NCBI GenBank assembly: GCA_025558095.1
Contig: JAIVFI010000044.1
Location: 62,001-126,000, forward strand
DNA from: Hyaloraphidium curvatum
Lineage: Eukaryota; Monoblepharomycota; Hyaloraphidiomycetes; Hyaloraphidiales; Hyaloraphidiaceae
DNA length: 64,000 nucleotides
Direction of reading: 5' to 3'
How positions within the stretch are numbered: the stretch's first letter is position 1; each line of letters starts with the position of its first letter. Positions 2,416 to 52,388 of this stretch are shown in pieces. The position numbers were made by a program, and so were the translations under genes. A model generated the notes under the pieces. The model was not told the origin of the DNA. It made no database searches and saw nothing but the letters and a program-made list of their open reading frames with translations.

Positions 2416-3914
2416 ATGGACAGCGAGCCTGCGGCCGAGACCTGGCTGGCTGCATTTCCAGCGTGGCCTTCTGCGCCGCCGAGCCTCTCCGGCGCGCCGC
2501 CGTTCCCCGACCGTGCGGCGCCGGCGGCGGAAGCGCGACCGCTCACTGCGAGGGCCATGCTGGACGGCCTCGCGCCGTCGCCGGCCCTCCGCGCCGCGAC
2601 ACGCATGCAGCTCGTGCTCGCGCCCCTGGCGGGGGCGGCCATGGCCCGGGCCGCCTTTACTTTTGTCGCGTTCGCCGCCGTGCTGGGCGCGTCGTGGGCG
2701 TTCCCGCACGGGCAGTTTCCGCAGAACAATTTCGTCATCGGCTTCGCCGTGATGCTGGTCTTCACATTTCAGGCTTTGGTGGGGCAGGGTCTCATGGCCA
2801 CGTACCGCGGGTCCCTGAGGCTCCCGACGTCGACGTCAGGTCCGGTGCTCCTGGACAAGCACCCGCTCGCCCCGCTAGTGCGGTGGGCGGAAGCGCAGCG
2901 TGCGGGCCACATGTCGGAGCACGATCCCGTCGACGAGCTGTGTCCCTGCCCGCTGCCGGGCTGCGCCGGGGGGCTCGGTTCTCGCGCCGCGCTTCTGCGC
3001 TGGCTCGAACTGGCCTTCAAGTCCGTCTTCGTGACTTCGGCCATGTTTGTGTGGATCTTCACTCCCATGGTCACGCAGGGGTACGAATTTTGGCGGACCC
3101 CGTGGTCTGCGACGCTTGGGGCGTTGAGCCGTGAGTAAGACAGCCGTACACCGCGCTTGCTTTCTGCTGAACGTCCCATCTTGCAGTCGCTGCGATTCCG
3201 ATATACAGCTTCCCCGTCACTGCCGTGCGCTTCAACGGGAACATCGCCGTGTTCGAGCTTTCGGAACGTATCTCGCACCGGATGATGCGGCTCGCTCTCT
3301 CGGACGTGCTCAGTTCTCTGCGTCACCGCTCCCTATCTGCCATGGAGCACGGGGAACTCCCGGTTCCGGTCGATAAGCCCGGTCCAGGGAATCCGGCCGA
3401 TGCGGACCTCTACGTGGAGCTTCACCGAGCCCTCTCCGCGACATGGCGCTCGCGCGTCTCGCAGACCAACTTCTCCACCGCCCTCGTCGTCTCGGCCCTC
3501 ACCGCGCTTGTCGGCAGCTGCATCGTCATGGTTTCGGGCGGATGCCTGCCCGCCATATATCCCGCCTTTTTGGCCTATTTGGCGCTTGCGCTGGTCCTCG
3601 TGGACCTGCTCAACCTGGCCGCCAGCAACGGACAGGTCAGTTCGGTGCGCGCTCTGTACCACACGGCGCGGCGGGAGCTCCGCGAGCTGCCGGACCCGCC
3701 CGACCCCGAGCTCCGCCGCGCGGCAGCCCGGCACGACGCCCGCCTGCCGGGATATCTCGACGACCCGGGCGTCAGGGGGAAGTTCCTGGGCCTGACGGTG
3801 GACTACGGAGTCGTGAGGACGGTCGTCGTGACCACGATCACTTTGATCGTCGGCATTTGGAGCATGCTGGAGGGGCTCGGAGTCAGGTTGACGATGGACT
3901 TCGCGCGCACCTGA
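2416..3914 (+). CDS. Seven-helix membrane protein of unknown family, copy A (7TM-A)
   Basis: I do not recognise a named family. Exons 2416-3130 and 3187-3914 (56-nt GTGAGT intron) give 480 residues. Hydrophobic segments lie at about 73-95, 105-127, 192-219, 230-252, 334-356, 360-383 and 446-468. The loops after helices 2, 4 and 6 are long and charged, and the loops after 1, 3 and 5 are short, so the long loops share one side, probably the cytosol. A Cys-rich motif LCPCxxxGCxGxxGxR sits at 175-190 just before helix 3. The gene at 50424-52388 is a clear paralog: same motif, same helix order, and matching segments such as LYVELHRALSATW against LYVRLHEELLATW. It could be a channel, a receptor or a transporter; the sequence alone does not decide. 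The ATG chosen gives a short cytosolic leader. Confidence 0.75.
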
Positions 3915-4819
3915 GCATGGCGTCGCCGGTGGGAATGTATGCTGATCATCCGACGATTGGAGCTCCGAGTGGTGGCATATGTGGTCGCTACGCGAATGGA
4001 AAGGACCGAGCAGTTCTTTCGTCAAGAACAAACTCAAAGCTGTGCTCCGAGCAGCTCACATCTGCCTCAGCGTCGCGATTTCGTCACCTCCAAATCCCTC
4101 TTCCACGCCCAAGGACTTCCAAAAGTCCACTTGTTCCGGAGAACGCGCGGTCGCGATCGGGAGCTTCTGCGCGGAGCGGCCGCGCTGGAATAGGCGACGC
4201 CCCGCAGCTGCGCGGGATGCCTGCTCGGAGAGGTCACGATTACGACGCCGGCGCAGCAAGCTTGCATTATCGCTCTTCTCGGGAACGGGGGACGGAACCC
4301 TCGCCGTTCTATCGCGGACCTCCTCGCCGACCGCGGTGCCGGTCGGGGCTACGTGCGGAGCCCGCGTCGCAAACCGGATACCCGCCGTGCGCGCAGCGGA
4401 GCCTTTTGAGCAGTTTGTGTGCGCCCCGGCCGCCCGGTCTGCCCGCGGGGCTCCTGCCCGTTGGGGATGTTTTGGCGGCGAGGCGGCAGCATTGGTGCCT
4501 TGGCTTGAGGGTCCGGGCTCCGCAGCCACCGCCCCTCGGCGGCCTTCCGGCGCCGCTGCGTGCAACCGATCCCGCCGCTGCTTTACGGCCGGCACCCGCG
4601 CACTCTCGTATGCAGCGGAGGATGCACCGCGGTGCGCGGCCGGCGGGCACGAATGCCCTGCCGACCGGTCGGCACCTCCGTGGCTGGGGCGCCGACACCG
4701 ACGTCACCTGTCCCCAATCCGGGGCCCTGCGTCCCTTGTTTTCCGCCACCGGCCTGGCAGATCCCAGACAAATGATCTCGGGCCCGAACGAACCCCCATT
4801 TCGCCGGATCGACCTTGCG
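3915..4819. other. Intergenic, no gene seen
   Basis: 905 nt between 7TM-A and the secreted mosaic gene. Open frames here are GC-driven: they run across the 7TM-A stop in another frame and show no family motif. It probably holds the promoter of the mosaic gene. Confidence 0.4.
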
Positions 4820-7800
4820 ATGGACGCGCCGGCACCCCCGGCGAATGCGCCGGCGCGCCGCACTGCCCCCCGACGCGGGCGGCCGCGCCTCGCGGCGTCC
4901 CTCATCTGCCTCGCCGCGCTCCTCCTCCTCCTCTCCGCCCGCACCTCCGCGCAGCTCGCCGCGCACGATCGCCCCCCCGCCGTTCGCTCCTCTTCGGCAT
5001 TCGTGCGCGGCGAAACATGGTGGGCGCCGAACGTCCCGGCCGCAGCGCCGCGGCTGACTCGCCCCGCGCGCGCAGCTGCTTCGGATGCTCGTACGGCACG
5101 GGATGCTGCTGCCCCCGCGCGTCCCGCGAGGTCCGCACGAGGACGGTCACCTGGACGGCCGTGGCGACCCGCCGCATCACGCGCACCCACGTGAAGAAGG
5201 TCACGACCATCGTGACGGTGACCGCCCGGCGGTTCTGGGGCCGCAGCACGCCGGTGGTCGTGCGCGGGGCCGCCGGGAGCAGGCCGGAGCGTCCGGGGGA
5301 TGCCGGCACGAACCTGCGGAGGGATCACGGCCGCAACGCCACGGTGCCCCGCCGGCTCGAGGCCAGATCACCACCTCCCGAGCCCTATTCCCCCCTCGAT
5401 GAGCCCATCCGGGAGCCGCATCGCCTCTTTGCCCGGCACCTCTGCCCCGCGTGCCCCTCCGGGATCGTTCCGGCCGCGAACGCGGTGGGAGGCAGCCCTT
5501 GCTGCCCCCGCACGACGGTCTGGAGGACTTCGACCGCCGTGCGCAGGCGGACGACGACGGTGTACACGACCAGGACGCGGAGGGTGACGAGCACGAGCAC
5601 GTTCACGAGCGTCGCCGGCGCGGTGGGTGGCTTTACGTTCCCCGAGGTGACCTTACCTTACTTGATCCTTGATCCCTGATCCCGGACAGACAAACGCCGT
5701 GCAGGGACAGGCGAGGACACTTACCGCCTCCCGCAACCTGTATTTGGATTGACCCGCAGCCGCCCCGCAGATCTGGTACGACGACGACGACGACGGCCTC
5801 TTCGACCCCGCGCACGACCGCCCGCTCGCCGGGCAGGTGGTCTACGTCCTGGAGGTCGACGGCGCCACGGGCCACGCCGTCGCCGTGGCATCCGGGACCA
5901 CGGACGGCCAGGGACACTACGAGCTGCCGGCGCCGCAGATGCCCCCCGGGGTGGTGTGCAGGATCGCGCTCAACGACCCGGGGAACAGGCCACTGGGGAG
6001 CACCTTGGTGGGCGGCGCTCCTTTGCACCGCTGATTCGTCTGATCCGGTGCCGTCAGACCAACTCGTCGGGCAGCTTCAACTCCCTGATCCCGATCCCGC
6101 CCGCCCGCCAGCCGCCCGAGGTGATCGCGATCGCGCACCGCAACGCGTACGGCGTCCGTCTGACTCCGGAACCCCGCAGCTCGCCGTCACCGCCTTCCTC
6201 GATGGCTGCTCCGCGCGCCGCCGCTCGGGCGGCGCCGTCACCGTCGCCGGCACCGGCGCGGCCCCGCGCTGCACGGTGGTGCTCACCTCGTCGGGCGCCC
6301 GGATCGCCGAAACCGCGTCGGACGCCGGCGGCGCGTGGCGGTTCGTCGTTTCCGCGGCGGCGATCCCGGGGATGGGCGGGCGGACGCCGTTCGAGGTGCA
6401 CCAGCTGGACGGGCACGGGCTGGCTTCGGCGCCGGTCGAGGCGGGGTGGGTCCCGGACGCGTTTCCTCGCCCGTGGTGGTTTGCTGACGTCCGTTCGAAG
6501 CGTCGCGAACTGCCCCGTAAGGACCGCGACGGCAACGGCCACGAAGACACCGACCCCGCTGCCCCTGGGCTCCATCTCGGGCCGCGTGTTTGTCGACGCG
6601 ATCGGCAGGCCCGGTGTCGTCGGCGTCGCCATCAAACTCACCGGAACGGCTGCCGACGGAACCGCCGTCATCCTGGCGACGAGCACCTCGGCCGACGGGA
6701 GCTACTCCTTCGCGGACCTGCCGGCCGGGACCTACACCCTGACCGAGAGCGTGCCGGCGGGATACTCGCCTTCGCCCAACTTCCCCAATACTGTGATCAC
6801 ACCCGTCGTGCTCGCTCCCGGTGCATCGTCGACGGAGAACGACTTTGGCCTCGTGCAGCCGATCGCCTCTTCGAGCACCGCCGCGGCTCGTTCGACCTCG
6901 AAAACCAAAACCTTGACGGCAACGACGTCGATCGCGCAGAGCTCGACGGCCTCGCCCACCACCACGGGCCTTCCCCTGGGGACGATCTCGGGCCGCGTGT
7001 TCCTCGACGCCACGGGCAACCCCGGCGTCGCCGGCGTCACCATCCAGCTCGCGGGCACGGCATCGGACGGCAGCGCCATCGGCTTGTCGACCATCACCTC
7101 GGCGGACGGGGGCTATTCCTTCCCGAACCTGCCCGGCGGCACATACGCGATCACGGAGCTCGTGCCCGCGGGCTATTCGCCCTCGCCAAACTTCCCCAAC
7201 ACCGTCGTCGCGCCCGTCGTGCTCGCTCCCGGTGGATCCTCCGCCGGGAACGACTTTGGCCTGGTACAGAGCACATCTTCGAGCACCGCGGCAGCCGCTA
7301 CGTCGACTTGGCAGACCGAGAGCGCGACGGCAACGAGCTCGGAGTCGCAGAGCTGGACGGCGACGACCAGCGAATCTGCTTCGCGGACCGGTACGACCTC
7401 GGAGTCGCGGAGCTTGACCGCGAGCACCTCGGAGACGCAGAGCGAGACCGCGACGGCATCAGAAACCCAGAGCCTGGCGGCCACGAGCAGCGAGACGGCT
7501 TCGGCGACCGCGACGTCACCGGAGTCCCAGACCTTGACGGCCAGCACGTCCGAGACGCAGAGCCGGACGGCCACGACGTCGGAGTCGCAGAGCGTGACGG
7601 CCAGCTCCTCCTCGGAGACGAAGAGCGGGACTGCGACGGCATCGGAAACCCAGAGCCTGACGGCCACGAGCAGCGAGACGGCCTCGGCGACCGCGACGAC
7701 ATCGGAGTCCCAGACCTTGACGGCCAGCACGTCCGAGACGCAGAGCCGGACGGCCACGACGTCGGAGTCGCAGAGCGTGACGGCCAGCTCCTCCTCGGAG

Positions 7801-10800
7801 ACGGCGACGACCAGCGAGAGCGCCTCTGCGAGCGCCACGACTTCCGAATCCCGGAGCGCGACGGCCACGACCAGCGAGACTGCCTCGCCAACCGCGACGA
7901 CCTCGGAATCGCAGAGCTTGACGGTCACGACGCAGGCTACCTCGGTGAGAGGATCGCTTGGGAGCGCGGAAGCAGCCGCTGACGAGCTTGCAGACCCAAC
8001 CATCGACGTCGACGGCCGCCCCGACCACCTCGAGCCTGCCCTCCGGATTGATCTCGGGCCGGGTGTTCCTCGATGCCCCCGGCCAGCCCGGCGTCGCCGG
8101 GGTCACCATCCAGCTCGCGGGCACGGCATCGGACGGCAGCCCCGTGAGCTTGTCCACGACCACCGCGGCGGACGGAAGCTATTCCTTCCCAAACCTTCCG
8201 GCTGGAACCTACACCGTGACTGAAGTCGTGCCCGCGGGCTATTCTCCCTCGCCGAATTTCCCCGAAACCATCATCACCCTGATCGCGATCCCTGCGGGCG
8301 GGGCTTCAACCGCGAACGACTTTGGCTTGGTGCGGACGAGCACCTCTTCGAGCACCGCGGCGGTGGTTCCTTCGACATCAAAAACCAAGAGCCGGACGGC
8401 AACGAGCTCGGAGACGCAGAGCTTGACGGCCACGAAGTCGGAAACGCCGAGCACCAGCTCTTTGACGGCCACGAAGTCGGAGACGCCGAGCAGCAGCTCT
8501 TCGACGGCCACGGAGTCGCAGACGCCCAGCAGCAGTTCTTTGACGGTCACGAAGTCGGAAACGCCGAGCACCAGCTCGTTGACTTCCACGAAGTCGGAGA
8601 CGCCGAGCACTAGCTCTTTGACGGCCACCAAGTCGGAGACGGCCAGCAGCAGCTCTTCGACGGCCACGGAGTCGCAGACGCCCAGCAGCAGCTCTTTGAC
8701 AGCCACGAAGTCGGAAACACCGAGCACCAGCTCTTTGACTTCCACGAAGTCGCAGAGCCGCACTCCTTCGCCGACGTCGAGCAGCACCACGGCCCGCCCC
8801 ACGACGTCGAGCAGCACTCATTCGGCGACGTCGAGCACCCAGGCCGTTCCGAAGACGTCGACGAGCTCGACATCTGCAACTACCACCAAAGTTTGTCTAC
8901 CTGATGCCGCTCTCCCAAACCTCGAGTGACCAGTCTTTGCAGGTTTGCAGCACCGTCACCCCGCTTCCCAGCCCGTCCGGGGGCACCAACGCCTGGAGCG
9001 GCACGGTGACCACTCAGGCGGCGGTTTCGAGCCCCGGCGTCGATTTCCAGTCGAACACCGGCGGCGACGGATGGGATGTCGGGTTTCACGCTGATGGCCA
9101 GAGGGTGTTCAACGTGTTCCACGTCAGTATCGCGCTCCGTGCTCTGGGCTCTCGCTGAGCTGTGCGCTTCGCCTCGCAGCACGACGTTGGCATGACGGTT
9201 GATTGCCACGTAAGTGCGATGTTCTGCAATCACTTGCTCTCCTCGAACTCCTCTGTCCCTTCAGATCAAGAGCACCGGTGACCCCTGCAACGCCCATTAT
9301 CCGTGGAGCGGAACGACAGACGTGCTGACGTCGCAGCAACCCTACCTATTGTTCGACCCGTTGGACCCCAACCTGATGTACATCTGGGGCCTACTCTCCT
9401 TGCAGTCGGGAGCGTCAGCAGCAGCCGTGATCGTGGGTATCAACGTGGGCAGCACCGCTGCAACGGTACCGACCATCACGGGGCTGTACCAAATGTCTCG
9501 CGACGGCTACGGACCTTATCCCGACTTTACCTACGGAAACTACGGCCCGGTGGGAGGGGTCGTGATAGGCATGTGGCCCGTGCGTTCGCTCGGGCAAAGC
9601 CTGACGCCAGGCCACAGGAACGCAGTTCTGGGCCATCAACAACGCTCAGAACTTTGCTCTGGATCACGAAAGGAACGCGATGCTGTGCTTCGACACTTCC
9701 ACCAAGGCTGCTTGTGCTGGGCCCGCCTGGTACCCAGTAAAGTACCCCAACAACTGGATCAGCAATTGGGGTTATACGGCATGGATCTTGGAAGCGAAGG
9801 GACGGATCTACATCTACAGCCCCGGGGAAGCGTCCGGTTTTTGGAAGAATGTGATAACTTGCTTCGATCCCAACTCGGCTGGGACCGCGTACGAATGCGG
9901 CGGGAGCTGGCCGGTCACGGTTCCGTATGAGTGAGTTCGTCTCCCGTCGAGCGAGGGGCAGTCTTCTCAACGATCTCCCAGCACAACACTTGACGAAGAC
10001 ACAAGATCGGCATCGCTCTTCCAGTATCGCCCTTCTGCTTCAGGGGATGCGCAGGGAGTCTGCGTTGGCGGTGCTCAGTATGATGCCATAGCGGGACCCG
10101 CAGGCCGGATCTACTGCTGGCACTTTGATGGCACCAAAATCGGATGTGGGTTCAACCGGAGCTCGACTCGCCAGTTGTGTTGACTCATTGGTTCGGAAGA
10201 TCTGGCCGACATCCACGGCCTCCTGAGCCACACCTCGGTCAGCGGCGCGAACTTTGAAACCACGAAGTACCTTGTGCCTGCCAACGACGGGGTGGCGTGC
10301 ATCGACATGGCCACCAACGCTTCATGCACCGGGTATCCGATAACGGGCCTCACACCAGGCGGGGACATTTCGACCTATACGATCCGCGCGGAATCGCCGA
10401 CGTGTTTCTGGGCGAATAGCGACGCCGGCGACATTTGGAACTTTGACCCTGTCGCGAGAACAAAGGGCTGCGGGAGTAAGCTATACACTTACGGTGGGTT
10501 TCACTTGGGGTGCATCCTGGAGTCACACGAACTCATTGCCTGGCCCGATCTATAGACAGCTTCCACCCTGTCAACCTCGAGAAGCCCTGGTGCACGCAGA
10601 ACATCACGAGCTGGAAGTCGTGGACGCTGATCAAGGTCGGCAACAACCTGGCTTACACCAGCGCGAGCATCGTCTTCTACGACCAGAACCTGGTCCCGAT
10701 CCCGGGCCTCGCCTTCACCATAACGTCGGCGTCGCCCACCGCCAACTTTGGGAGCAACCTGCCGGGGTCGCTGATCCCCGACGGCACGCTGCGCTTCGAG

Positions 10801-10940
10801 ATCAAGTTCACCGGCCTGACGGGGTGCACCGGATGCGCGATCCAGTACTCTGTAGACTGTGCGTACCCGCGCCTTGGACACCGATTCCACCGCTGACCCT
10901 CTCGACAGTTGACTCGACCCCGCAAGTGTGCTGTGGCTGA
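4820..10940 (+). CDS. Secreted multidomain surface protein with three SdrD-B-like domains
   Basis: Predicted extracellular or cell-surface protein of 1748 residues. Exons: 4820-5019, 5076-5622, 5771-6007, 6058-6120, 6180-6445, 6501-7944, 7994-8890, 8943-9122, 9180-9209, 9265-9549, 9626-9930, 9982-10145, 10200-10493, 10556-10858, 10909-10940; all phases agree. An Arg-rich n-region and a Leu-rich core ending in ARTSAQ form a signal peptide. Thr/Val-rich segments and a transthyretin/Cna-B-like unit (YDDDDDGLFD) follow. Three SdrD-B-like repeats then share SGRVF(V/L)DA, GTYxxTExVPAGYSPSPNFP and NDFGLV, separated by Ser/Thr/Glu linkers (SETxS and KSETPS types). The last 600 residues are Cys-containing, with recurring CxDxxTxAxCxG units and a beta-rich end (CTQNITSW). 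SdrD-B domains are best known from bacterial adhesins, so an adhesin or wall role is inferred. No GPI signal is evident. The 148-nt third-exon acceptor and the 9550-9625 intron are the least certain joins. Confidence 0.8.
6552..8340 (+). repeat. Three SdrD-B-like coding repeats
   Basis: Three copies of a roughly 95-codon unit begin near 6565, 6973 and 8036. They match at both protein and DNA level, for example the string encoding AGYSPSPNFP in each. Copies 2 and 3 resemble each other more than copy 1. They lie in exons 6 and 7 of the secreted mosaic gene. Confidence 0.85.
7453..7818 (+). repeat. 183-nt tandem duplication in the SET-rich linker
   Basis: A unit running through agcctg(a/g)cggccacgagc and on to ccagctcctcctcggagacg occurs twice with a period of 183 nt (61 codons), differing at only a few positions. 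The period keeps the frame. The sequence itself is an imperfect array of Ser-Glu-(Thr/Ser) codons. Confidence 0.8.
8385..8870 (+). repeat. Imperfect KSETPS(S/T)SSLTAT tandem repeats
   Basis: Short in-frame repeats of about 13-15 codons encode KSETPS-TSSLTAT variants in exon 7 of the secreted mosaic gene. They form a Ser/Thr-rich, probably O-glycosylated stalk after the third SdrD-B-like domain. Confidence 0.8.
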
Positions 10941-11105
10941 GGTGCACGTTGTTGGGCATTGGGCGAGCGCGGGATGTGCCAATAGAGCAACCACGGTTTC
11001 GCTTCCTGCTCCGCCGCGCGATCTTTGTTGCACCAACACCGTCGCGTTGTTCGCCAGACGGCGTGTCGTAAAGAACACGGAGCACACCGTTCGGTCCCAG
11101 ACCTT

Positions 11106-11789
11106 GTTTCCAACACAAGCCCTATCTATTGGAACGGACACACGGTCTCCACGGTGAAGAATATTCCCGCGCCCCTTAGCATCGCGGGGACCAACTACAG
11201 CGGATCCGACAAGCCCGCCGCCGAGCGCTTCGCGCACTGGACGGCCGGATGCGGTGGCACGATCGCGTTCCTCGAAAACGTGCTGCGCCCGCTGAACATC
11301 CCCGTGCTTGCCCTGTGGAACGACCTGGACGCATGCGCGCACTCGTCCGCCTACTTCCCCACCCTCGACATGTACCTCTCCCACGGGGACGATCCCTACA
11401 CCGCGCACACCATGGGCATCGGGGACTGGTTCGCCCCCGCCGCCGAGCTCTTCACCTCCCGGGCAGACTGGACGTCCTGGTTCAACGTCACGGTGCCGCT
11501 CTCGTGCAAGAACCTCGGCCGAAGACCGCACGAGATCGCGATCGGCACGCCCAGCGTGCCGCTGTGGTACGCGTTCTGCGTCGATCGGCTCGCGGGGGTG
11601 CAGTGGGATTCGCCCGTGGCGGCGAAGGAGGGAAGCTGGGTGGTGAAGGAGTTTGCGCCGTTCGGGTACACCGCAGGGACGCTGCAGGCCAAGGGCGTGT
11701 GGGACAGGTTGGAGGCGGTGAGGGCGGCGTTGGGAGGCTGTCCGCCGGGGTGCGCGGTCAGCCCGTGGTCGGGGTTTCCAATGTGCTGA
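11106..11789 (+). pseudogene. Transglutaminase-like fold ORF lacking a visible start
   Basis: An open frame ending at 11787-11789 encodes a coherent domain. A likely catalytic Cys lies in TAGCGGTIAFLENVLRPLNIPV, a His in AHSSAYFPTLDMYL and acidic residues in SHGDDPY, the Cys-His-Asp pattern of transglutaminase-like enzymes. Later Cys pairs (CPPGC) suggest an extracellular protein. No in-frame ATG precedes the domain; the frame opens after an in-frame stop near 11000 and the first Met is inside the domain. It is therefore either the 3' part of a gene whose 5' exon I could not place, or an N-terminally truncated remnant just after the secreted mosaic gene. The family call is by motif only. Confidence 0.45.
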
Positions 11790-11866
11790 CGAGACAAGGT
11801 CCGATGCACCGAGTCGAAATGATGGTACACTGCATCGTTTCCGGTGCCGCGATCCAGAACCGTCCG

Positions 11867-12835
11867 TCAAGTTTCCCGCTCGACATTCCCGAATGCGGCC
11901 CAGAGGTCCCTCTCGCGGCGGCCTTCCTCCCCACGCCACGCCTCGCCGTGCGTCAGCGGCGGCCCCGAAAACTCGAACCGCACACGGAGCCCCGGCCGCA
12001 AGCACAGCATCCCGATCGCATCGGCGTGACCAACGGGGAGCGACGGCTGCGCGTTTCGGAGCACCAGCAGGCGCAGACTCGGCGGCAGCCGCGCGCACCA
12101 AAGCTCGCCGGTCGGGATCCTGTCCAGCTGCAGGGTCTCCACGCTGTCCATGGCCGACAGGGAGCTCCAGAACCTGTCCACGTCAGCCTCGGTCATGGGC
12201 GGGATCACCCGCACGGGGAACCAGATGAAGCGCAGCTCCTTCAATCGCAGCCCCTGCATCGCGAGCAGCCCGGGGAACGTGTCCAGCTGCGCCACCGCCA
12301 AAACGAGCTTGGCCCCGAGGGCGGGCGGGGCACGGTCCCAAGGGAACCCTTTGTTGAGGCACCGCACCGCGCGGACGGCGGGAGCTGCCGCCAGCGCCTC
12401 GAAGATGCGCGAGGTGCCGACGACGGTGACCTCCACGTCCCGCATGCGCAAAAGCATGCTCTCCAGGTCGTCCGCGGCAGAAAGATGCACACCGGCCAGC
12501 ATCAAGTGGCGCACGAAGCGCAGGTTCGGCGACTCCCCCGCCGCCGAAAAGAAGCGCCCGAACGGAACAGGGCGTTCGAAGGGCGGGAACGCGGAGTCGC
12601 CGAGGCACACCGTGCGGAAGAGTGCGGGCATCACAGCATCGAGGCCCGCGGAGCTGGCTTGCGCGAGGGAGGCGAGCGTGCGGAGGAGGCCGGCGCGGGA
12701 GAGGTGTTCGGCGACCAGGGCGAGGAGCTCCTCGGGCAGGTCCGGCGGTTCGGGCACCATCAACGACGAATGAAGATAGGTGCGACTGTCCGGGTCGCTC
12801 CCGGCAAAGCTAGCTCCGGGTGCGGCCGTGGCCAT
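11867..12835 (-). CDS. F-box-like / leucine-rich protein
   Basis: Intronless frame of 322 residues. Residues 30-75 (LPEELLALVAEHLS...) resemble an F-box, the SKP1-binding helix bundle of SCF ubiquitin ligases. The rest has irregular leucine-rich spacing (VRHLMLAG, VETLQLDRIP, LRLLVLRNA), as in substrate-recognition repeats. A second Met at residue 26 (MVPEPPDLPEELL) is an equally good start. Its 5' end lies 52 nt from the gluconokinase start on the other strand, so the two probably share a promoter. The substrate is unknown. Confidence 0.6.
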   Translation of the reverse strand: MATAAPGASFAGSDPDSRTYLHSSLMVPEPPDLPEELLALVAEHLSRAGLLRTLASLAQASSAGLDAVMPALFRTVCLGDSAFPPFERPVPFGRFFSAAGESPNLRFVRHLMLAGVHLSAADDLESMLLRMRDVEVTVVGTSRIFEALAAAPAVRAVRCLNKGFPWDRAPPALGAKLVLAVAQLDTFPGLLAMQGLRLKELRFIWFPVRVIPPMTEADVDRFWSSLSAMDSVETLQLDRIPTGELWCARLPPSLRLLVLRNAQPSLPVGHADAIGMLCLRPGLRVRFEFSGPPLTHGEAWRGEEGRRERDLWAAFGNVERET

Positions 12836-13445: not shown

Positions 13446-13451
13446 CCTCTA

Positions 13452-16668: not shown

Positions 16669-16717
16669 CAGGCTTCACGTGTATCGATTGAAGTGACCCT
16701 TCAGCCCTCCCTTTACA

Positions 16718-16930: not shown

Positions 16931-16941
16931 ACCCGCCCCAA

Positions 16942-26395: not shown

Positions 26396-29300
26396 ATGTC
26401 CAGAAGGAAGAGGGACGCCGCCGCGGCGCCCGCTGCTGAGGAGCAGACGCCGGGAAGGAGGCCGCGCAGGGCCGCGCTGCCGGACGCGCAGCAGCCCGCT
26501 CGGCCCGCAGAGGACGCGCAGGACAGCAAGGAAAAGGCGGCAAACGCACCGGACGACTCGCCGCCGTCGTCGCGCACGCGGAGATCCCTGGCCGCAAAGG
26601 CCGCCAGCGCCGCAGGAACACCCTCGGCTTCATCCCCCGCGGAAGCTCCCGCGCAGCCGGCTTCGCAGGCCGGGAAGCGCAAGCGGCGCGGAGCGGGACC
26701 CGCACCCGAGCCCGCACCGGAACCCGAGCACTCCGATTCCCCGCCCCCCGCCAAGCGCACGCGCATGGGCGGGAGCGGCAAGGACAAGGCGGACAAGGAC
26801 CGCCCTCCCCCCGAATCCCCCACCCTCTCCGGCCGCGCGGGAAAGTCCCCCCGCTCGCGCAGCAAATCCTCCCTCGGATCCCCCAAATCCGGGCCCCTCT
26901 CGCCCCGCGCGCAAGCAGCCGTGGCGTCCGCGGACGAGGACATGGCGCTGCCGCCGCCCGCGCCCAAGGGCCGGCGCAGGGACTCGCGCAGCCGCAAGGG
27001 CGACGAGGACGGGCCGGGCAGCCCGCCTCCGTCCGTGGGGCGCAGGAAGAAGAAGCAGGACGAGCCGCCGGATGCGCTGGGGAGCGACGGCGAGGAAGCC
27101 GCCAAGCCGGATACCCCAGCATCCAACGGCGCATCGCCGTCTTCTTCCTCCAACCCCAACCCTCCCAACCCCGCATCCAACTCCAACTCCAACCCTCCCA
27201 CTCCCGCCGGTCTGCCGCCCGCCGCCTCGGCCTCGGCGCAGCTCGCAGCCATGTTCGGCCTGGGCTCGCTGCGCCCGTCCACTGGGTCGGGCTCGGGCTC
27301 GGGTTCCGGCCGGTTCGCGTCGCTGCTGTCGCAGCTCCGTCGCAGGGACGATCCGACGGCGCAGATGGTGGCGCTGCAGGAGCTGTCCGAGGTGCTGTCG
27401 GTCGCGACCGAGGACATGTTCGGGCGCGGCGGCTACGGGGGAGGTGGGATGGCTGGCTTCGACGTTGATGCGTGGGTGAGGGAGCTCTTGAGCGTTCTCA
27501 GAGGTGGGAACCGGCGGCGTTTGTCGGTTTGGACACAGCTGACAAGCGAGCGATCCTTTCCCACAGGACCGGACCGCAAGGATCCCAAGGAGGCCCTCCG
27601 CGCGGCCGGCATCGCCGACGACTTCCCGCTCGAGTTCCTCGACGCCGACACCCTAGCCGAGCTCGGGCTCTCGGCTCCTTCCTCCGCCATCGCCCCCGAC
27701 CTCATGCTCCTCGCCTTGCGCTGCCTCTCCAACCTCATCGAGGCCCTCCCCAGCGCCACGGCGCTCGTCGTCGGCGCCGAAGGCGTCCCCGCGCTCGTCG
27801 CCAAGCTCCGCGAGATCGAGTACATCGACCTGGCCGAATCCGTCCTGAGCGTGCTCGGCAAGGTGGCGGGGGAGTACCCCCTCGCGGTGCTCCGCGCGGG
27901 CGGCGTGGCCGCGGCGCTCGGCTACGTCGACTTCTTTGCTTTGTCGACGCAGCGCGTCGCCGTGGGGATCGCGGCGGCCGCGCTGCGCGGGCTGGGGCAG
28001 CAGGCCGGCGCCGAGGACATGGCGAGGGAGGCGATGCCGACGCTGGAGCGGCTGCTCGGGTACGGCGATGCGAGGCTGGTCGAGGGGGTGGTCAAGGCCA
28101 TCGCAAAGGTTGTCGAGTGGGCGTGCAGGCCGCAGGCTGGAGAGAGCGAAAAGGCCGTCGAGGATCGCGTCGAGGTACGTCTCATCCTGTTGCGTGCCGC
28201 AATCTCGCATGTCTAACTTTTCTTCCGCTTCAGTCCCTCATCCAGTCTTCGCTGCTCCGCGCCATCATGGATCTCCTCTCCCCCAACGTCCCCACCCAGA
28301 CGGTCGTCACCCCGCAGCTCTTCACCTCCCTCCTCCGCCTCCTCCCCCCCGTTCTGCGGGCCTCGCCGCGCTACGCGCACATGATGGCCGCCGAGTGGGG
28401 CCTGGCGGACCTCGTGCGCAGCGTGCTCTGCGGGCCCGAGCCGGCGGACGCCGCGGACGAGGTCGCGGATGCCGAGGATGCGAATGCCGGCACGGCGGAG
28501 AGGGTGATGCGGACGATTGCGACGAGGACCGAGGAGCAGGTGATCGAGGCGCTGTCCGTCGCCACGGACGCCATCGCCGCGTTGCCGAAAGGTGGGGAAC
28601 AGTCGTTTGCGAGCCAGCGCCATCAGCTGACCTGCATGCATGTTCTCCAAGGCGACATTTGGGCGCTGCGTGTGCCGGCAGGGCAGGGCGACGAGAAGGC
28701 CAAGCCCCCTCGCGCATCGACTTCCGAATCGCAGGCCAGCGACGTCGCAATGGAGGGCGCAGAGGCCCCGGCCGCGAGCTCCGAGAGCAAGCCCGAAGGG
28801 GAGGACCCTGCTGACGGGGGCGACGGGGAAGAGGACGGGGACGGCGAGGGCGACGACGGCGAGGAGGACGAGGAAGACGACGACGAGCCGCCGTCGCCGA
28901 CGACCACCACCGGGCCCTCGTTCACCGAGCGCAACGCCAAGCTCGCCGAACTGCACCGCGCCGACAAGGACAGCCTCGTCAACTTCTGCGGCTCTTTGCT
29001 TCCCGTCGTGCTCGAGGTGCACGCCGCAACGGTGCAGCCCCAGATCCGGCGCAAGTGCGTCGGCCTCATCGCGCGCATGGTCTGGTTCTGCGGCGAGATC
29101 GCGGGCGAGGACGGGCTGCGGATCGTGCTGGCCAGGGCCAAAGGGTTCGGCGGGTTCGTCACCTCGCTCGTCGTGCAGGGCCGGGAGGGCGTCTACGGCG
29201 CGGCCATCGACGCGAACGCGCCACCTTCGGTGGCTGCCGCTGCGGCGGCTTCGGAAGCCAACAAGAAGGCGGAGCAGCTCGGAGTGCTCGCTTCCGGACT

Positions 29301-40027: not shown

Positions 40028-43516
<3,489 letters not shown>

Positions 43517-43665
43517 GGCGGCTACCCTTGTTGAGGCTCGACGCGATCGCGTGGCACATACGATCGCGCCGGAAATACAACTGTCTCCCGGCCCGCTTCG
43601 CTTCCGTTCCGCCAGCGCAACCTCAGCCATCGAGCTCCGCGCCGCAGACGTCGCACGAAGTCGCG
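43517..43665. promoter_or_regulatory. Divergent promoter, beta-galactosidase / GNAT
   Basis: 149 nt between the two start codons. It must carry control sites for both genes; no TATA box or operator is obvious. Confidence 0.4.
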
Positions 43666-44651
43666 ATGCCCGGCCACATCGCCTCGGATCGGGACCACAT
43701 GCTCGAGTTCGCCCGGCATGCCGCGGAGGTCTCCAAAGCGAAAAGCGCCGGCCACGTTTCCCTCTCCCACGGCGTGGAAGGCAACTGGGCTGCCGCTCCG
43801 TATTTCATGACGAACAGCTTCATGACGACGCGTCCGCTGTCGAACGACCAGTTTGCCCAAGCCTGCGCTGAGGTCACGGCGGACGCCGCCAAGCGCCAAG
43901 AGGCTCTGGGCTCCGCCTTCCGGGCGCGCTGGTTGTTCCAGGTCTTCGAGGGCGACCTGCAGGACGCCGACGCTGCCGTCGAGATCGCCATGAAGAACGG
44001 GCTGGCGCTCACCTCGCGCTCGCGGATCATGGCGACGGACGTCTCGCTGCTCGTCCCGCCCGCGCATCCGGCGCCGGAGATGGAGCGCCGTAGGATAGTG
44101 ACCGAGGCCGATGCGGCGGAGGCGGTCGCGCTCAACTACGCCGCGTACGGAGCTCCCGCAGCCCCCCGGGATGCCGAGCTCACCGCGGCGTCCGGGATGT
44201 ATCGCTCGTCGCCAACGACCGACTTTGGCTGGCTGGCTGTCGTCGACGGGAAGCCCGTGGCCACGTGCCAGTGAGCTGCACCTCGAGCGTACATGTTCCA
44301 CAGCCGATCTTACGCCCATTTCCCAGAATCCTCGTCCAGGACGGGTGGCTTTATGTGACCGAGGTGGCCACCGACCCCTCCCCTGCCCACCGCGGCAAAG
44401 GCTACGCCGAGCACCTCCTCCGCCACGCCCTGCTTACCGCCCGCGCCGAGACCGGCCTCACCCGCACCGCCTTGGATGCCTCGCAGCCGGGTGCGCCGAT
44501 CTACGCGCGCATGGGGTACGCGTTCACGGGGGGGTGCTGGATGGCGTTCGTCGCCGCGAGGAGCGAGAAGGGGAGGGAGGCGACGCGGAAAGATGAGGTG
44601 CAGGCCGAGGAGGAGTACAGGAAGCGGATGAAGAGGATTGGGAGACTTTGA
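43666..44651 (+). CDS. GNAT-family N-acetyltransferase
   Basis: Acetyl-CoA-dependent acetyltransferase of unknown acceptor. Exons 43666-44270 and 44327-44651 give 309 residues. The first 100 residues hold a helical region (HMLEFARHAAEVSKAKSAGHVSL, SNDQFAQACAEVTADAAKRQ). The GNAT core follows: WLAVVDGKPVATCQILVQDGWLYVTEVATDP, the acetyl-CoA loop HRGKGYAEHLLRHAL, and YARMGYAFTG. The acceptor tttcccag at 44326 was chosen because it keeps the beta4-beta5 strand (ATCQILVQDGWLYVTEV) in frame. The C-terminus is a charged helix. Confidence 0.82.
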
Positions 44652-44854
44652 TCGCGCGCCGGCGGCGAGTTCTTCGCGAGATAGGGTGTGGCCCCCTGCT
44701 ACGTTTCCATTTTCGCTCGACAATACACATCTTTCGAGTACTCATAGGCGGTACTCGGTGTCCGGCGGGATCGGGAATTCGTCGACATTCAAGCACATTG
44801 ACACCCAGCTGATGTGAGATGATCAGTACCCGATGCGGGCCACTCCGCGGATGC

Positions 44855-45576
44855 TCACGTGTAGTAGCTCATGACCCCCATGAGCTCCACCGCCCCCCTC
44901 TCGCCGAGCAGCTCCCTGACCTTGAGCCACGTCGCCTGGTCCACCCTCTTCCTCTCCGAATGGTAGAGCTGCCTGCAGAACGCGTAGATGGCGTTCTGGT
45001 CAGCGGTCATGGCTGCCACGGGCGGCGGCAGGTTCTTGCGGATGGCGTCACATCCCTCCTTGGACAGGCCGGCGTGGATCGCAGGGAGCTCGTGGGCATA
45101 CCATTCGAAGTCCGAGTTGAAGAAGCGGGCGGTGACTAGGATGCCGATCTTGGGAAGGAGGGTGAGGGGACGGCTTGCGGGACGGAGGAGGAACGCACCT
45201 CCTTTGCCATGGGCGGGACCTCGCTCTTGAGGTTGAAGAACTGCAGCATGTCGACCATGACCTTGTTCATCCCCGGAGTGCGGTGCCACGGGTTGCTCGG
45301 CCCGACGCGGAGCACCCTGTCGCCCAGGGCGTTCGCCAGCTCCTTCTGGTCCTCGGCCAGGCTGTCGTCCTCCGCGGGCGTCAGCGCAGGGAACCGCTTT
45401 CCCTCCGCGCGACGCCCATTGGGGCCCTTGTCCATGAAGAACGGGATCTTGGTGAGATCCCCGAGGATGCCGAAGAACTCGGTGTTGTACTTGGCCAGCT
45501 CGGCCTCGGTGGGCTTGAGCTTGGGCGCGGGGAGGTTGGCACGGTACTCCTTGCTCCAGGCAGATTCGGAGCCCAT
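44855..45576 (-). CDS. Carboxymuconolactone decarboxylase / AhpD-like protein
   Basis: Small all-helical protein of the CMD/AhpD fold, which includes decarboxylases and peroxidase partners. Exons on the minus strand: 45576-45199 and 45148-44855; 223 residues. The core motif ARFFNSDFEWYAHELPAIHAGLSKEGCDAI fits the CMD pattern (Glu-Trp, His, then a Cys). AhpD's catalytic CxxC pair is absent, so a thiol-peroxidase role is unlikely. The actual reaction is unknown. Upstream, NPWHRTPGMNKVMVDM is also typical of fungal members. Convergent with the GNAT gene. Confidence 0.75.
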
Positions 45577-45892
45577 CGTGGCGTTTCCTCAATGGAATGA
45601 AGGTCCTTGGTGGACGAAGATTCGCCTTCTGCCCTCGCGAGAGGACAAAGATGTGCCCGGAATCGGAGGGGAGACAGACGCGGGGGAACAAACGCCGGCG
45701 ACAATCTCCCGACGCGAGTCCTCCCGGCAGCGCAGGCAACGAGCGCGAAAGAACGCGTTCGATCTCCCTTTAGGCAAAGAGAGAGCCTGAAGAGACCGGC
45801 GGGCGCTCGAGACTATTGGCGGAGAGACCCTTTGCCACGCGCGCGTTCCTTTCGTCGTCCCGCCGACGGCAAAGTGCGGATCCAAACACGCG
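45577..45892. promoter_or_regulatory. Divergent intergenic, CMD-like / unknown membrane protein
   Basis: 316 nt between divergent start codons. Likely holds both promoters; nothing specific recognised. Confidence 0.35.
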
Positions 45893-47337
45893 ATGGCCCA
45901 CGAAACAGGCGTCCAGGGCGCACAGGGCGGGGCGTCCGCCGATCTCGGAGTGCCCGGCGTCAGCGGCCACGGTGAGGCACGGCCCTTTCCCGCCCGGAGA
46001 GCCCTCTGACGCGGGATCCGGGTAAACAAGTCTACACGACCTCGTCGAGCCTTCCCTTCTCGGTGGAGAAGGAATGGTACCTGTGCTACGCCGACAGCTG
46101 CACCGTGGACGACCTTTTCGTCGGGATGATCGACAAGGTGGCCCCCGCCGCGGCCTCTGGAACGTTCGGGCGGGCTGACGGGATCGCGGACAGGTCGGGC
46201 AGTGCGTGACCCCCCTGACGACCATGCTGGGCCTCAAGCCGACCCCAAGTACGTTGTCCGTCCTTCGCTGTCGGCGATGTCCCGCGCTGAGTCGGATTCC
46301 CACAGTGATGGTCACGCGGGATTTCCGACTCCAGCTCCACCCGTCCATGGTCGCGCAGGGCTCCAAGACCATGATACCGGGAGCGGGCGACCACCTCTGG
46401 TTCCGCATGTACATGCTTGACGTCAGTAAGGCCTACATCAAGTGCGAGTTTGAGTTCCGGTTGGTCGGGGACCTGGACTGGGCCAAGTTGGTTTCCCGCG
46501 GGCAGTCGCTCGCGGCCCGATGACTGATTGCCCTCCCTTTCCAGGTGGGCAGAGAGAGACATTGCCGGCGGGAGGGCCAGCTGGGGCTCCGGCGTCGACC
46601 GCCGGCCAGGGATTCCCGTCGCCGCCGGCGTCGTCGGCTACGTGAGCATCCTTTTCGTCGTCAATGTTTGCCAGCTTCTCATATCCTCCCAGATGGTCGT
46701 CGTCCGGGATCCCAAAACCCACCGCCTCCGCGCCGCCCCCCCGGACCTCCTCCCCGTCGCCGAGTGGACCCGCCGCGGCATCTTCCACAGCTCCATCCTC
46801 GCGGGCGACATGCTGGACGGGGAGCAGGCGTACAAGTGGCTGCTGCACAGCACCGAGGCGGACGGGTTCGCGGCGGAGGAGGTGGTGCCGGGAGACAGGT
46901 GGGAGGCGCTCCCAGAGTACGAGTGGAGATCGCGGAGGACGGACAACGACAGTTTGGGGCACACGACGGTGCACCGGTGGGATTCGTTATCTGTGGTGCG
47001 GATCGGTTCTGATTCCTCGCTGCCAGCCGGGTGCTGCCCTTTTTCGACGCCTGCTACGCGCTCCTGCCGAAACAGCGGGTCGCCGGCATGTGGTTCGAGT
47101 GCGTTTCGCCCCCGCTTCCTGTCCGAACTCGGCTGACGGCGCCCTGCCAGGTGCAAGACCGAGATCCTCCCGGACCAGGACTGCACCATCCGCGGCGTCC
47201 ACATCCCCGGCGCCGACGGCCGCGCGCGCTTCCTCCTCGACAACGGCGGCGGCCCTGGCCGGCTGAACCGGTGCGGCGTCTGGCTCGTGGACCGGGCGAG
47301 GGTGCGGCTCAAGAGCGCGGGGGGCGGGCCGGCGTGA
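45893..47337 (+). CDS. Unknown multi-exon membrane protein
   Basis: I do not recognise it. Proposed exons: 45893-45971, 46031-46137, 46203-46248, 46306 to about 46425, about 46545-46976, 47027-47098 and 47151-47337. The join between exons 4 and 5 is unresolved, with several donors (gtcagt 46422, gtaagg 46426) possible. The N-terminal half has EKEWYLCYADSCTVDDLFVGMIDK and a basic beta-rich stretch (RDFRLQLHPSMVAQGSKTMIPGAGDHLWFRMY). One strong hydrophobic segment follows (VAAGVVGYVSILFVVNVCQLLI). The C-terminal half is soluble, with WTRRGIFHSSILAGDMLDGEQAYKWLLHS, RVLPFFDACYALLPKQRVAGMW and paired Cys. Conserved-looking phases in most introns argue that it is a real gene. Confidence 0.6.
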
Positions 47338-47440
47338 GGCGGTTGGACAGGCATCAGCAATCAGAATAGACTACATTTCGCGACTCGTTCCGCGACGACT
47401 CCACTTGCGCCGATCGGCATCCAATTTTCGCACCCTTGGA

Positions 47441-49608
47441 TCACGGGCTCAGCAGCGCCTTCGGGGGCACCTGCACCCGCGGCGACTCGGGCACCTCCTC
47501 CTCCTCCTTGACCCCCTCCACGGCGACCTCCCCCTTTTCCAGCAGGTCGTCTTGGCTCCGATCGGTTTGGAGCGGGTGCATCGCCTTCCAACGCTTCTGG
47601 AAGTGGAACGGCCCGTTCGGCCCGCAGTATTGCGGGTACCGCCACTCGATGAAGTAGGTGATGCAGAGCATGACGCTGCGTTTGCCAAACGTGGGAACAA
47701 TCAGCCCACCGATGCATCCGCGGAACGCGCGGAGGGAAACCCACATCACCGCCCCGCACATGGCCGCGCTCACGGCGAACGCCTGCTGGTATAGCGGCGC
47801 GTCCTGCTGCCTGTACAGCTGCGGCCCGATGATGCTGCCGAACTGCCCGAACATGATGGGGATGGAGGAGGCGAGGGCGGTGTAGGTGGTCCCGTAGATG
47901 GTGTCGGTGCGCCTGCAATCCCGGGTTTCAGTCCGCTGCTGCTTCCAAGACGTGGAGCCGAAACCCACCACGCCATGGTGATCGGTGCCAGTGGCGAGAT
48001 GCCCGTCAGCCCGAGGAACAACAGGAACAGCTTCACGCCGGGCAACCCGGGCCCGATGACGGAGAACACGGTGTAGGCGACCATTGGGAAGCACACGATG
48101 GCGACGAGGTGGAAGAACCGGTCGTGGAAGCGGTCCGACGACCAACCCCAGAACAGGAGGGTGATGACGCCCCATGTGCCCAGCGGGGCGCTCATGGCGA
48201 TGGCCTTGGTAGAGGTGAAGCCGAGGTTGGTCAGGATGATGGGCTGCCGAATCGCGGTCAGTTTGGAAGCCTTGGCAGGCGTGGAGACAACCCACGTAGT
48301 AAGCCACCAGCCCCGACGTCACCGCCCCCGAAAACAGCTTCGCAATAGCAAAGGTGTACGTGAACGGGTTCCTCGCCGCGTCCTTGACTTGCGCCCACAC
48401 CCACGTCCTCCCCCTCGGATCCGAAACGCTGTCCCCCTGCAGCCTCCACTCCATGAACTGCCTCTCCGTCCTTGTCATCCACCCCCTGCACGTGTGCGGG
48501 TAGTCGGGCAGGCACGTCCACGAGCCGATGCCGATGAGGATGGAGAACAGGCCCTCGAGGAGGAAGAGCCACTGCCATCCGTACAGGCCGCCGATCCCGT
48601 TCATCTGGATGATGCCCGTGGCGAGCAGGCCGCCGATGATGGTTGCCACGGAGCCCGCGACGAAGAAGCCGGCGACCCGGCGGCCGCGCTCGGAGCGCTT
48701 GTACCAGAACTGGAAGGGGACGGGGTGCGGTGAGGCGAGGTGATCAATCGGGTGCCAGCGAGGCAACCCACGGTGAAGTAGTACAGCACGCCCGGGATCA
48801 GCCCCGCCTCGCACACGCCGAGGAAGAACCGCGTCGCCAGCAGCCCCCCGTAGTTGGTGATGGCCGCCATGCACGCGAAGACGATCCCCCAGGAGACGCA
48901 GATGCGCGCGAGCCATTTCGAGGGGCTGGCCCACTTGAGCACGATGTTGCTGGGGATTTCGAAGATGATGTAGCCGAAGAGGAAGATGGATTGGGCCCTG
49001 GAGGGGGGAGGCGGGTCGGTCAGATCCTGGGTAGACTACCCGTGAAGGTGGTTGTGATTACCAGTTGTATTGGTCTGCCAGCGGGGGTCAGTCAGGTGTT
49101 CCGTCCGCAAGCACAAGGCACAAAATGCCCACCGGTGGTCAGGTTCAGCGTCTGCAGCAGCGAGTTGCCGCTCTCGCGGTTGGCCACTGCGGCGAACGAG
49201 AGGGCCGAGCGGTCGAAGGTGTTGACCAGGAAGAGGAAGAACACGGCGGGCATGATCCGCCAGTCGGCGCGCCGCACGAGGGCCCTCTCGATCTTGGCCA
49301 GCTCCCTGCGAAGCCGTGCGGGAGAGGATCGGCGATCAGCGTCGGGCGGTGCGGGCTTCGCAGGGGACCCACTCGGGGGCCGCCCCCGCCAGCTCGGCGG
49401 GCAGCGCGACCTTGCCGTCGGCGTCCTTCGGGTACGACTCGTCGGGCTCGTCGGTGCGGCCGCCGACGATGCGGCGCCACGTCCAGCGCGCGGGCGCCGG
49501 TGCGGGCTCCGCAGGAGGGTTGTACGGCGGCGGCGGCGAGGGCGTTTCAGCGCGCGCGGGGGCAGCGCCCGCCGCGGCGGCCTTCACGTCGGCGACGCCG
49601 GGCTCCAT
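47441..49608 (-). CDS. MFS transporter, anion:cation symporter (allantoate permease-like)
   Basis: Plasma-membrane proton symporter of the ACS/Dal5 group that imports allantoate, nicotinate, vitamins or similar anions; substrate not predictable. Exons on the minus strand: 49608-49373, 49305-49133, 49074-49062, 48997-48772, 48709-48296, 48243-47969, 47912-47441; 602 residues. Evidence: NTFDRSALSFAAVA in helix 1, DQYNWAQSIFLFGYIIFEIPSNIVLKWASPSKWLARICVSWGI in helices 2-3, YYFTFWYKRSERGRR after helix 5, LPDYPHTCRGWMTRTER in the central loop and about twelve helices. The first 100 residues are a long Pro/Ala-rich cytosolic leader. Exon 3 is only 13 nt. All phases agree. Confidence 0.9.
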
Positions 49609-50423
49609 TGGCGCGGCACGCGGACGATTGGCGGCGGCGGATGGGGTGTTCCTGGACGAAGGCAGCGGATGGCTGATCGATCCGCGGCCTCAGCCCCGTC
49701 GAGCGTCTGGGCCGACGATCGTCTGACGTGACGTCGAATCAGCCGGACGGAGGGCCCTTCGCCGGCACTACTGTGGTGCTCCACAGCGTGTGGGAATGGG
49801 GCGAATGCTTCCGCAACGGCCGCCGGTGCCTATGCGCCCTGCCGGGACAGCGGGGGGCGAGGGCGCCTGGCCGCACCCGGGCGGGATCCGGCCGCTTCGG
49901 CCAAAATGGAGAGGTTGGGCAGCACCCATGCTATGGATTTGGGCAAAATCGCGCGGGACAGTGGTCTCCGACGGGCAGCGACCGTTCTTCGAAGATGGTC
50001 TCCAAGTGGGTCCGTCCCTTCCGCCGCTCCCGCGCGCAGGGGGTCCGGTCCGGCTCGGTCCGGCCCGGGCAGTCAACCGAATGACACCCTGAGCTAGATC
50101 AATGCGTTGAGAGTTGTCGTTGCTTGAATCGCGACGGGGAAAGCGGATTTTGGAAGATTCCTATGGAAAGCGGTCTGGAGCGGTCCAAAGTGACGTATCC
50201 GTCTCCCCACTCCAAGCGATCTGCACCCGATCCGCACGATTCACCCATGAACGTGACCGGCTGCCAATGTCCGCAATCAGACGCACCCCGGCGGAAGGTT
50301 ACCTCCGCTTCCCACGTTCGGCACTACGTTTCACGTTTCTGCTCCCTAGCCAACCAGCCACCTCTGCGGAGGTGCGGGCGCCTCACATCACTCGTCGGGC
50401 TCCGCAGCGCCGCTTCCCCCGCG
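49609..50423. promoter_or_regulatory. Divergent intergenic, MFS / 7TM-B
   Basis: 815 nt between two divergent genes. No coding motif in any frame. Both promoters should be here. Confidence 0.35.
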
Positions 50424-52388
50424 ATGACCACAATGCGGCGCGCGCCGCCGCGCGCGCTTGACTTCTCCCCCGCCGAATGGGTCACCGTCTTCCCCGCGCC
50501 GTCGCCGGGCGTCGCCGTGTTCCCGTCGACGAAAGCCGATGCCGCGCCGCCCGACCCGGGCGCCGACCTGCGCAGGGCCGAGCCGCTGTCGCGCGCCAAC
50601 CTGCTGCGCGAGGCGCGGCGGTCGGGCTCCGGGCTGCTGTACGGCATGACGCGCCTGAACTTTTTCCTGAGCCCGTGGGCAAACAAGGTGCAGCTGCGCG
50701 TGCTGGGCTTCCACGTCTTCAACTTCGCCCTGCTCGCATTCGTGTGGGCGGTCAATGCGGCCGGCGGCAACCGGTACGGCACCCGGCAGCTGATAGCAGG
50801 TGGGTTGCCCCGACCGCCCCAGCTAAAGGTCGGCTGACCCCTTCCACCATTGTTTCCAGCCCTGATCAGCGCGGTCCTGGAGCTCCTCGGCCTCGTCCTC
50901 CTGCCCTTCCTCTTCTTCGGCCGCCTCCGCCAGCGCTTCAAGAAGCTCGGCTCGGGGGTCAACAACGTCCTGGACCAGCACTCGCTCGCCGGCTTCTGTC
51001 GGTGGCAGCAGCTCGTGCGCCGCGATAGCTTGTCGGAGATCCTGGTCGACGTGGATCTCGAGAAGGCGGGCGCGGCGGCCGGGCCCAAGTCCGACGCGGG
51101 CGCCGAGGAGGCCTCGGAACCGGTCCGAGACAGCGCATCCACCGCCGCGGACTCGGAGTCGTCCTCCGAACCCGCCTCCATGCCCCGCGAGCGGCACTCC
51201 TCCTCCTCCCGCACCGACGCCCCCTCCCACATTGATGACTCCCCCCCACTCGGCGTCTCCCCGCTCGACACCGCCCCCCGCAAGGCGGTCGACCTCCCCC
51301 CCACGGAGCCCTCGAAGCTCATCGAGCACCACAAGGGCGACTCCCTGTGCCCGTGCGCGCAGGACGGGTGCATGGGTCGCATCGGGCACCGGTACGCCAA
51401 CCTGAGGCTGTTCCAGATGTTCGTCACCCTGCCGACGCTCATCATGCGGAACCTGTTCCACTTTTACGCGGCGTTCGTGACCTTTGGGTACATCTTCTGG
51501 GGGCGGTGGTGGGGCGTGCTGCTCGGCATCGTGGCCAGTGGGTTGCTGCGTGCCGGGAGCACGCACGTTTGATCTCACCCGTCCGCCGTCCAGTCTTCGC
51601 CGTCCTGAACGACAACGTACCCACCATCCTCGGCCTCGTGCAGTGGACCAACGTCCGCCTCCTCGGCCTCTCCCGGCGGGTGCACCGCCGCGCCATGCTG
51701 CTCGCGCTCGACAGCTTCCTCGCGCGGTGCAAGCACGAGCTGCTCGCGTGCGACGGGGACGGCGACGGCGCGCATGCGATGCAGCCGGCGGAGCTGTACG
51801 TGCGGCTGCACGAGGAGCTGCTGGCGACCTGGAAGAGGGTGCTGCCGCCGCTGTCCATCATGGTGTCCAACTGGGTGCTGCAGCTGAGCGTGCTGCTGGC
51901 GGTGATCATCATCAACATCGTGGGTTCCCGTGCCGCGGTTGCGCGGGCCGTTGCCTGACCTTTGGCGCATCCAGACGATGGGCTCGTGCGTCCCGGCGTA
52001 CTGCTTCTTCACCGTCGCCAACTCCCTCATCCTCATTACCACGCACCTCGTCGACCAGTCCGTCGCCAACTCCCAGATCTCCGACATCACGGATCTGTAC
52101 CTGGACGCGCGCCGCGAGGTGCGCGGCATGGTCGTCCGCGGCGAATCGCTCCCCCGCACCGTTGCGCGGGACCGCCTCCTCGCGCGGCTGAGGGCGCACG
52201 AGAACCTGCTGGGCTCGTTCCTCGAGGTGCACCTGTACAAGAGCCGGCTGCTGGGGTTCGAGATCAACTTCACCTTCACCCGCAACTTCCTCGTCACCCT
52301 GTTCACCCTGACGATCGGCCTGTGGACGCTGCTGAGGGGGAGCAACATCCACGTGGTGCTGGAGAACGTGTGCCCGCCGATTGCGTAG
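50424..52388 (+). CDS. Seven-helix membrane protein of unknown family, copy B (7TM-B)
   Basis: Paralog of the protein at 2416-3914. Exons 50424-50799, 50860-51537, 51594-51919 and 51975-52388 (all introns start GTGGGTT) give 597 residues. Helices at about 92-113, 122-147, 307-336, 343-366, 436-459, 464-487 and 558-580. The helix 2-3 loop is long (about 150 residues), Ser/Asp/Glu-rich and ends with the shared motif LCPCxxxGCxGxxGxR (288-303). Loops 4-5 and 6-7 are also long and charged; loops 1-2, 3-4 and 5-6 are short. Matching pieces with copy A include the LY-DARREVRG helix after helix 6 and LTIGLWTLLRG in helix 7. Extra length relative to copy A lies mainly in the N-terminus and the 2-3 loop. 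Function unknown; see findings for a channel/receptor hypothesis. Confidence 0.75.

Follow-up and report, generated by a model that had tools for sequence, protein, structure and literature searches.

What are the two membrane proteins that lie 47 kb apart in a 64,000-nucleotide stretch of Hyaloraphidium curvatum DNA (contig JAIVFI010000044.1, positions 62,001 to 126,000; hereafter the window), and what might they do for their host? We find that the two genes, here called A (window 2416-3914, +) and B (50424-52388, +), are members of a very large, intact family of seven-helix membrane proteins that is invisible to Pfam and whose predicted topology is inverted relative to that of G protein–coupled receptors (GPCRs). 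This placement is solid. We further propose, at a probability of roughly 45% and by analogy, that the family comprises surface chemoreceptors working like the seven-helix ligand-gated channels of the insect odorant/gustatory receptor (OR/GR) type.

The original prediction, made by reading the DNA without database searches, held that A and B are paralogs sharing several matching stretches. Both genes are found at these coordinates after removal of short spliceosomal introns, and the quoted pairs are present (LCPCPLPGCAGGLGSR / LCPCAQDGCMGRIGHR and LYVELHRALSATW / LYVRLHEELLATW), as is the ARRE stretch (ARREL in A, ARREV in B). Helix 7 likewise contains a shared stretch, but the exact pattern given for it, IGxWxxLxG, does not hold across the pair (VGIWSMLEG in A, IGLWTLLRG in B). 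Alignment confirms homology (BLASTP E = 2e-36, 28% over 320 amino acids [aa]; full-length Z = 53 against 300 shuffles). It had been conceded at the outset that a match confined to the hydrophobic segments would undermine this claim. With all transmembrane (TM) segments cut out, however, alignment of the remaining loops still reaches a score of 233, compared with 39.5 ± 5.7 for 300 shuffled versions (Z = 34), and hydrophobicity is thus not the source of the match. Indeed, conservation is higher in the loops than in most helices: identity is 24/67 in inner loop 1 and 24/74 in inner loop 2, against 0/24 in TM2 and 1/23 in TM3, whereas an artefact of hydrophobicity would produce the reverse.

That the proteins fall into no recognized family is also borne out. 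Gene A has no Pfam match, gene B has only a sub-threshold match to DUF2628 (E = 0.028), and a search of the PDB with the family profile gave nothing significant. Bestrophin had been named as an example of a well-known family whose profile might claim the pair; no such match was obtained, to the Pfam bestrophin profile or to that of any other well-known family.

The suggestion that A and B belong to an expanded family is strongly supported by the copy count, and the expansion may be lineage-specific. We searched the genome (31.9 Mb, 55 contigs) with six single-protein tblastn queries, namely B and five members from different branches, an approach that yields a lower bound. Gene B alone detected about 70 genes, and the union of the six queries covered 159 places on 42 contigs, or ~156 genes allowing for split ones. 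Every added query contributed new places (cumulatively 72, 113, 129, 137, 150, and 159), and the Chao2 estimate of family size is about 230. Scanning the 1.5-kb regions flanking fetched loci with a hidden Markov model recovered ~10 further members that all queries had missed. The family therefore has at least about 165 members. In these flanks, listed members were outnumbered by unlisted ones, and thus the family probably has several hundred members, an extrapolation from a small flank sample. No relatives were found in IMG/VR or GTDB, which are viral and prokaryotic collections and uninformative on other fungi.

Members are scattered across contigs, with some close pairs. In a tree of 58 aligned members, A and B occupy different clades, and their patristic distance (3.3) is close to the all-pairs median (3.4). 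They are thus in effect two random members of the family, and their 47-kb spacing does not reflect local duplication. Most members consist of one open frame of about 500-700 codons, most frames run uninterrupted for 480-850 codons, and few members have internal stops; protein length is 480-600 aa for most. Between gene A and its closest relative, on contig C41, synonymous divergence (dS) is 0.65 and nonsynonymous divergence (dN) 0.10. The resulting dN/dS of 0.16 shows purifying selection on the proteins in this branch at least. Introns are absent from nearly all members, but three interrupt gene B and one is found in the gene A lineage; retroposition or later intron gain could explain the contrast.

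An alignment of the 58 members was used to examine topology, loop lengths, and column entropy. Aligned members have seven hydrophobic segments, and the Lys/Arg content within 8 residues of the TM ends favors an inside N-terminus in 55 of them. Median inner lengths are 92 aa (N-terminus), 82 aa (loop 2-3), 73 aa (loop 4-5), and 65 aa (loop 6-7), while the outer segments are short: 7 aa (loop 1-2), 11 aa (loop 3-4), 5 aa (loop 5-6), and 14 aa (C-terminal tail). We therefore predict a cytoplasmic N-terminus, seven helices, and an extracellular C-terminus. The membrane of residence is probably the plasma membrane.

Conservation is unevenly distributed along this predicted topology. Column entropy reaches its lowest values in outer loop 5-6 (1.52 bits), TM7 (1.57 bits), and a Cys/His motif (1.73 bits), and its highest in TM1-TM6 (2.6-2.9 bits), making helix 7 the best-conserved helix and helices 1 to 6 variable. 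Nine positions are invariant or nearly so despite a median pairwise identity of 30%. In gene A numbering, H169, D173, C176, C178, and C183 lie in cytoplasmic loop 1, C358 in outer loop 5-6, N386 at the exit of TM6, and T457 in TM7; the ninth is a Cys in the C-terminal tail. The His, Asp, and two of the Cys of loop 1 are present in all 57 members with letters there, and the middle Cys in 56 of these. The tail Cys is found in 57 of 58 members, with gene A alone lacking it (Arg). There is also an N-terminal family motif, FSxxEWLAxxP. Because the His-Cys group is placed in the cytoplasm and the remaining two Cys face outward, H-x3-D-x2-C-P-C-x4-C is likely a metal site, and the loop 5-6 and tail Cys likely form a disulfide; both readings follow from the predicted compartment.

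Taken together, the topology, the loop-length pattern, and the conserved TM7 match the insect OR/GR superfamily of ligand-gated channels, which also takes in plant DUF3537 and animal PHTF proteins (PMC7746228, PMC9998090), and on this basis we favor the chemoreceptor reading. Published screening criteria for this superfamily include seven TM segments, an intracellular N-terminus, and inner loops longer than outer ones (PMC7746228), all of which are seen here: seven helices, a predicted inside N-terminus in 55/58 members, and inner loops of 82/73/65 aa against outer loops of 7/11/5 aa. The superfamily length criterion is about 350-500 aa, and most members fall slightly above it. Variable TM1-TM6 with a conserved TM7 is the pattern expected if receptors bind diverse ligands but have one type of gate in common. 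As the structure of BmGr9 shows, its ligand occupies a pocket between the helices, from which it opens a helix-7 gate (PMC11062906). A more specific version of our proposal, in which several hundred channels of the insect-chemoreceptor type have diverged past sequence detection and acquired a cytoplasmic zinc module and an outer disulfide in a nonflagellated fungus, is held a little more tentatively still. Kinship and function are distinct questions: the family may be a remote offshoot of the insect-type superfamily or may only resemble it.

Several results weigh against this reading. Pfam searches over 54 members gave no consistent match, and no solved seven-helix channel emerged from the PDB search. 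An hhalign comparison with Orco (query verified against PDB 9vqr and 6c70) returned only a 43-column chance match, although the Orco profile, built from two sequences only, was weak. The 7tm_7 and DUF3537 profiles had no match in the genome, nor any in control genomes, so little is shown by this. The TM7 signature TYhhhhhQF is absent, with the family consensus instead being RTxxVTxxTLxVGLWSILRG; published unicellular relatives retain one to three of the four signature positions (PMC7746228). A structure model of gene A exon 2 only, based on three sequences, has long TM5 and TM6 helices; its confidence (predicted local distance difference test, 44.5) is too low for it to support a claim about the fold.

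If the proteins are such receptors, each conserved and variable region could have a role. The variable helices 1 to 6 and outer loops would form ligand pockets that differ between paralogs, while the conserved helix 7 would transmit the signal or form the gate or pore. Loops 4-5 and 6-7 are long conserved cytoplasmic stretches that continue TM4-TM6 and lead into TM7, and they may anchor subunit assembly. The putative outer disulfide would link loop 5-6 with the tail that follows helix 7, and the cytoplasmic His-Cys3 site, probably binding zinc, could fold loop 1 or couple it to a partner.

The alternative that survives best is an unrelated, fungus-specific family of seven-helix receptors or sensors in which an inside N-terminus evolved independently and signaling needs no ion pore; partners held by the His-Cys3 loop could, for instance, relay the signal instead. 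We regard this as possible, though at odds clearly below even. It would account for the lack of a sequence link to seven-helix channels at any sensitivity tried, and neither the cytoplasmic motif nor FSxxEWLAxxP has been described for insect-type receptors. Against it, topology, loop-length pattern, and conserved TM7 together are those of the insect-type superfamily (PMC7746228).

It is unlikely that these are membrane transporters, enzymes, or self/non-self surface proteins expanded for nonchemosensory reasons. Large families of surface proteins do exist in fungi, and the invariant group resembling metal ligands could have a catalytic or a structural role. Against this, members match no transporter or enzyme family, and most polar invariants lie in loops, whereas transport or catalysis would require them within the helices. 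Seven helices and a large copy number also recall GPCRs, an identity that is highly improbable: the predicted topology, with N-terminus inside and C-terminus outside, speaks against it, being opposite to that of GPCRs in 55 of 58 members; there is no GPCR match in Pfam, and PDB matches to P2Y1 (E = 0.15, one short stretch only) are at chance level. Finally, if the family consisted of dead or decaying repeats, or if its reading frames were artefacts, the few internal stops and the missing Cys of gene A might be explained, but mostly intact frames, a low dN/dS, and invariant key residues leave this next to no probability.

The two gene models, both based on spliced translations, show how this architecture is encoded. 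Gene A has two exons and encodes 480 aa. Exon 1 (2416..3130, +) covers aa 1-238 and the first base of codon 239, comprising the cytoplasmic N-terminus, TM1, TM2, loop 1 with the Cys/His motif, TM3, and the start of TM4. A 56-nt intron follows (3131..3186, +; GTGAGT...CAG), and exon 2 (3187..3914, +) encodes the end of TM4, loop 4-5, TM5, TM6, loop 6-7, TM7, and the short outer C-tail. The invariant candidate metal site H169-x3-D173-x2-C176-P-C178-x4-C183 lies at 2920..2964 (+) in cytoplasmic loop 1, and the family-invariant Cys358 (GGCLPA) at 3543..3545 (+) in outer loop 5-6. Arg479 (3906..3908, +) stands where every other aligned member, including the closest relative, has the tail Cys. This relative (C41:327542-329028, -) is 79-86% identical to gene A; it is 2 nt shorter directly after the intron and may be disrupted or use another acceptor.

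Gene B has four exons, separated by introns of 55 to 60 nt, and encodes 597 aa. Exon 1 (50424..50799, +) encodes the N-terminus and TM1; exon 2 (50860..51537, +) TM2, loop 1 with the Cys/His motif, TM3, and TM4; exon 3 (51594..51919, +) loop 4-5 and TM5; and exon 4 (51975..52388, +) TM6, loop 6-7, TM7, and the outer C-tail. Loop 1, in exon 2, carries an additional Ser-rich stretch of ~95 aa along with the H-x6-C-P-C-x4-C motif (51327..51371, +). The invariant outer-loop Cys between TM5 and TM6 (GSCVPA; 51987..51989, +) has a likely partner in the C-tail Cys (VCPPIA; 52371..52373, +). Splice sites of both genes are backed by alignment with intronless relatives, and that of gene A further by the intron at the matching position in the C41 relative.

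Genome profile searches returned several chitin synthases and about 70 Fungal_trans matches, and none for IFT57 over the family cut-off; the host is thus a fungus, most likely one without flagella. Some Fungal_trans genes have identical scores (C25:4796-5410, -, and 28295-28909, +; C10:42653-43207 and C51:10831-11385), and their inverted or duplicated positions suggest recent segmental duplications or assembly duplicates. The window has a G+C content of 65.8%. Within it, a complete LacZ-type beta-galactosidase (40031-43033, -; GH2 and Bgal_small_N, 1001 aa in one frame) is present. Such enzymes are unusual in fungi, and horizontal transfer is possible. Directly after gene B lies a convergent PNPOx-type flavin oxidase (52664-53509, -). 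Farther along the window are a frame with a weak, sub-threshold match to a condensation domain of the nonribosomal peptide synthetase type (58269-59684, +) and a DUF2921 transmembrane E3-ligase–like protein (61824-63836, +).

Chemical sensing in fungi is mostly ascribed to a fairly small set of GPCRs plus transporters. Assuming roughly 10,000 genes, the family described here makes up over 1% of the fungal gene set and, if chemosensory, would constitute a receptor repertoire of animal scale in a fungus. This would mean that large sets of chemoreceptors other than GPCRs evolved outside animals, and that a simpler organism is available for their study. Should the fold turn out to be new, an unnamed membrane family of such size outside Pfam would still merit characterization.

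Among known systems, bestrophin, without a Pfam match here, resembles the family only in being a multi-helix membrane protein. The PAQR/adiponectin-receptor family has seven helices, an inside N-terminus, and metal ligands; here, the candidate ligands lie in a long loop, loops 4-5 and 6-7 are long, and there is no match to PAQR or other Pfam families. Pth11-type GPCR-like expansions are large paralogous seven-helix families in fungi and are thus alike in size and helix number, but the predicted topology here is inverted and no GPCR profile matches. From the insect OR/GR superfamily (Orco, ORs, GRs, GRLs, DUF3537, and PHTF), the fungal family differs in having no detectable sequence or profile similarity and no TYhhhhhQF, and in features of its own: the cytoplasmic His-Cys3 group, the outer Cys pair, FSxxEWLAxxP, and a length of about 500-600 aa. 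Among fungi, a 2020 survey reported one candidate insect-type receptor in each of two chytrids (PMC7746228), and a 2023 structure screen reported none among the fungi surveyed (PMC9998090). With the insect superfamily, the family described here nevertheless shares seven helices, a cytoplasmic N-terminus (here predicted), long inner and short outer loops, a conserved helix 7 with variable helices 1 to 6, and a large, possibly lineage-specific copy number.

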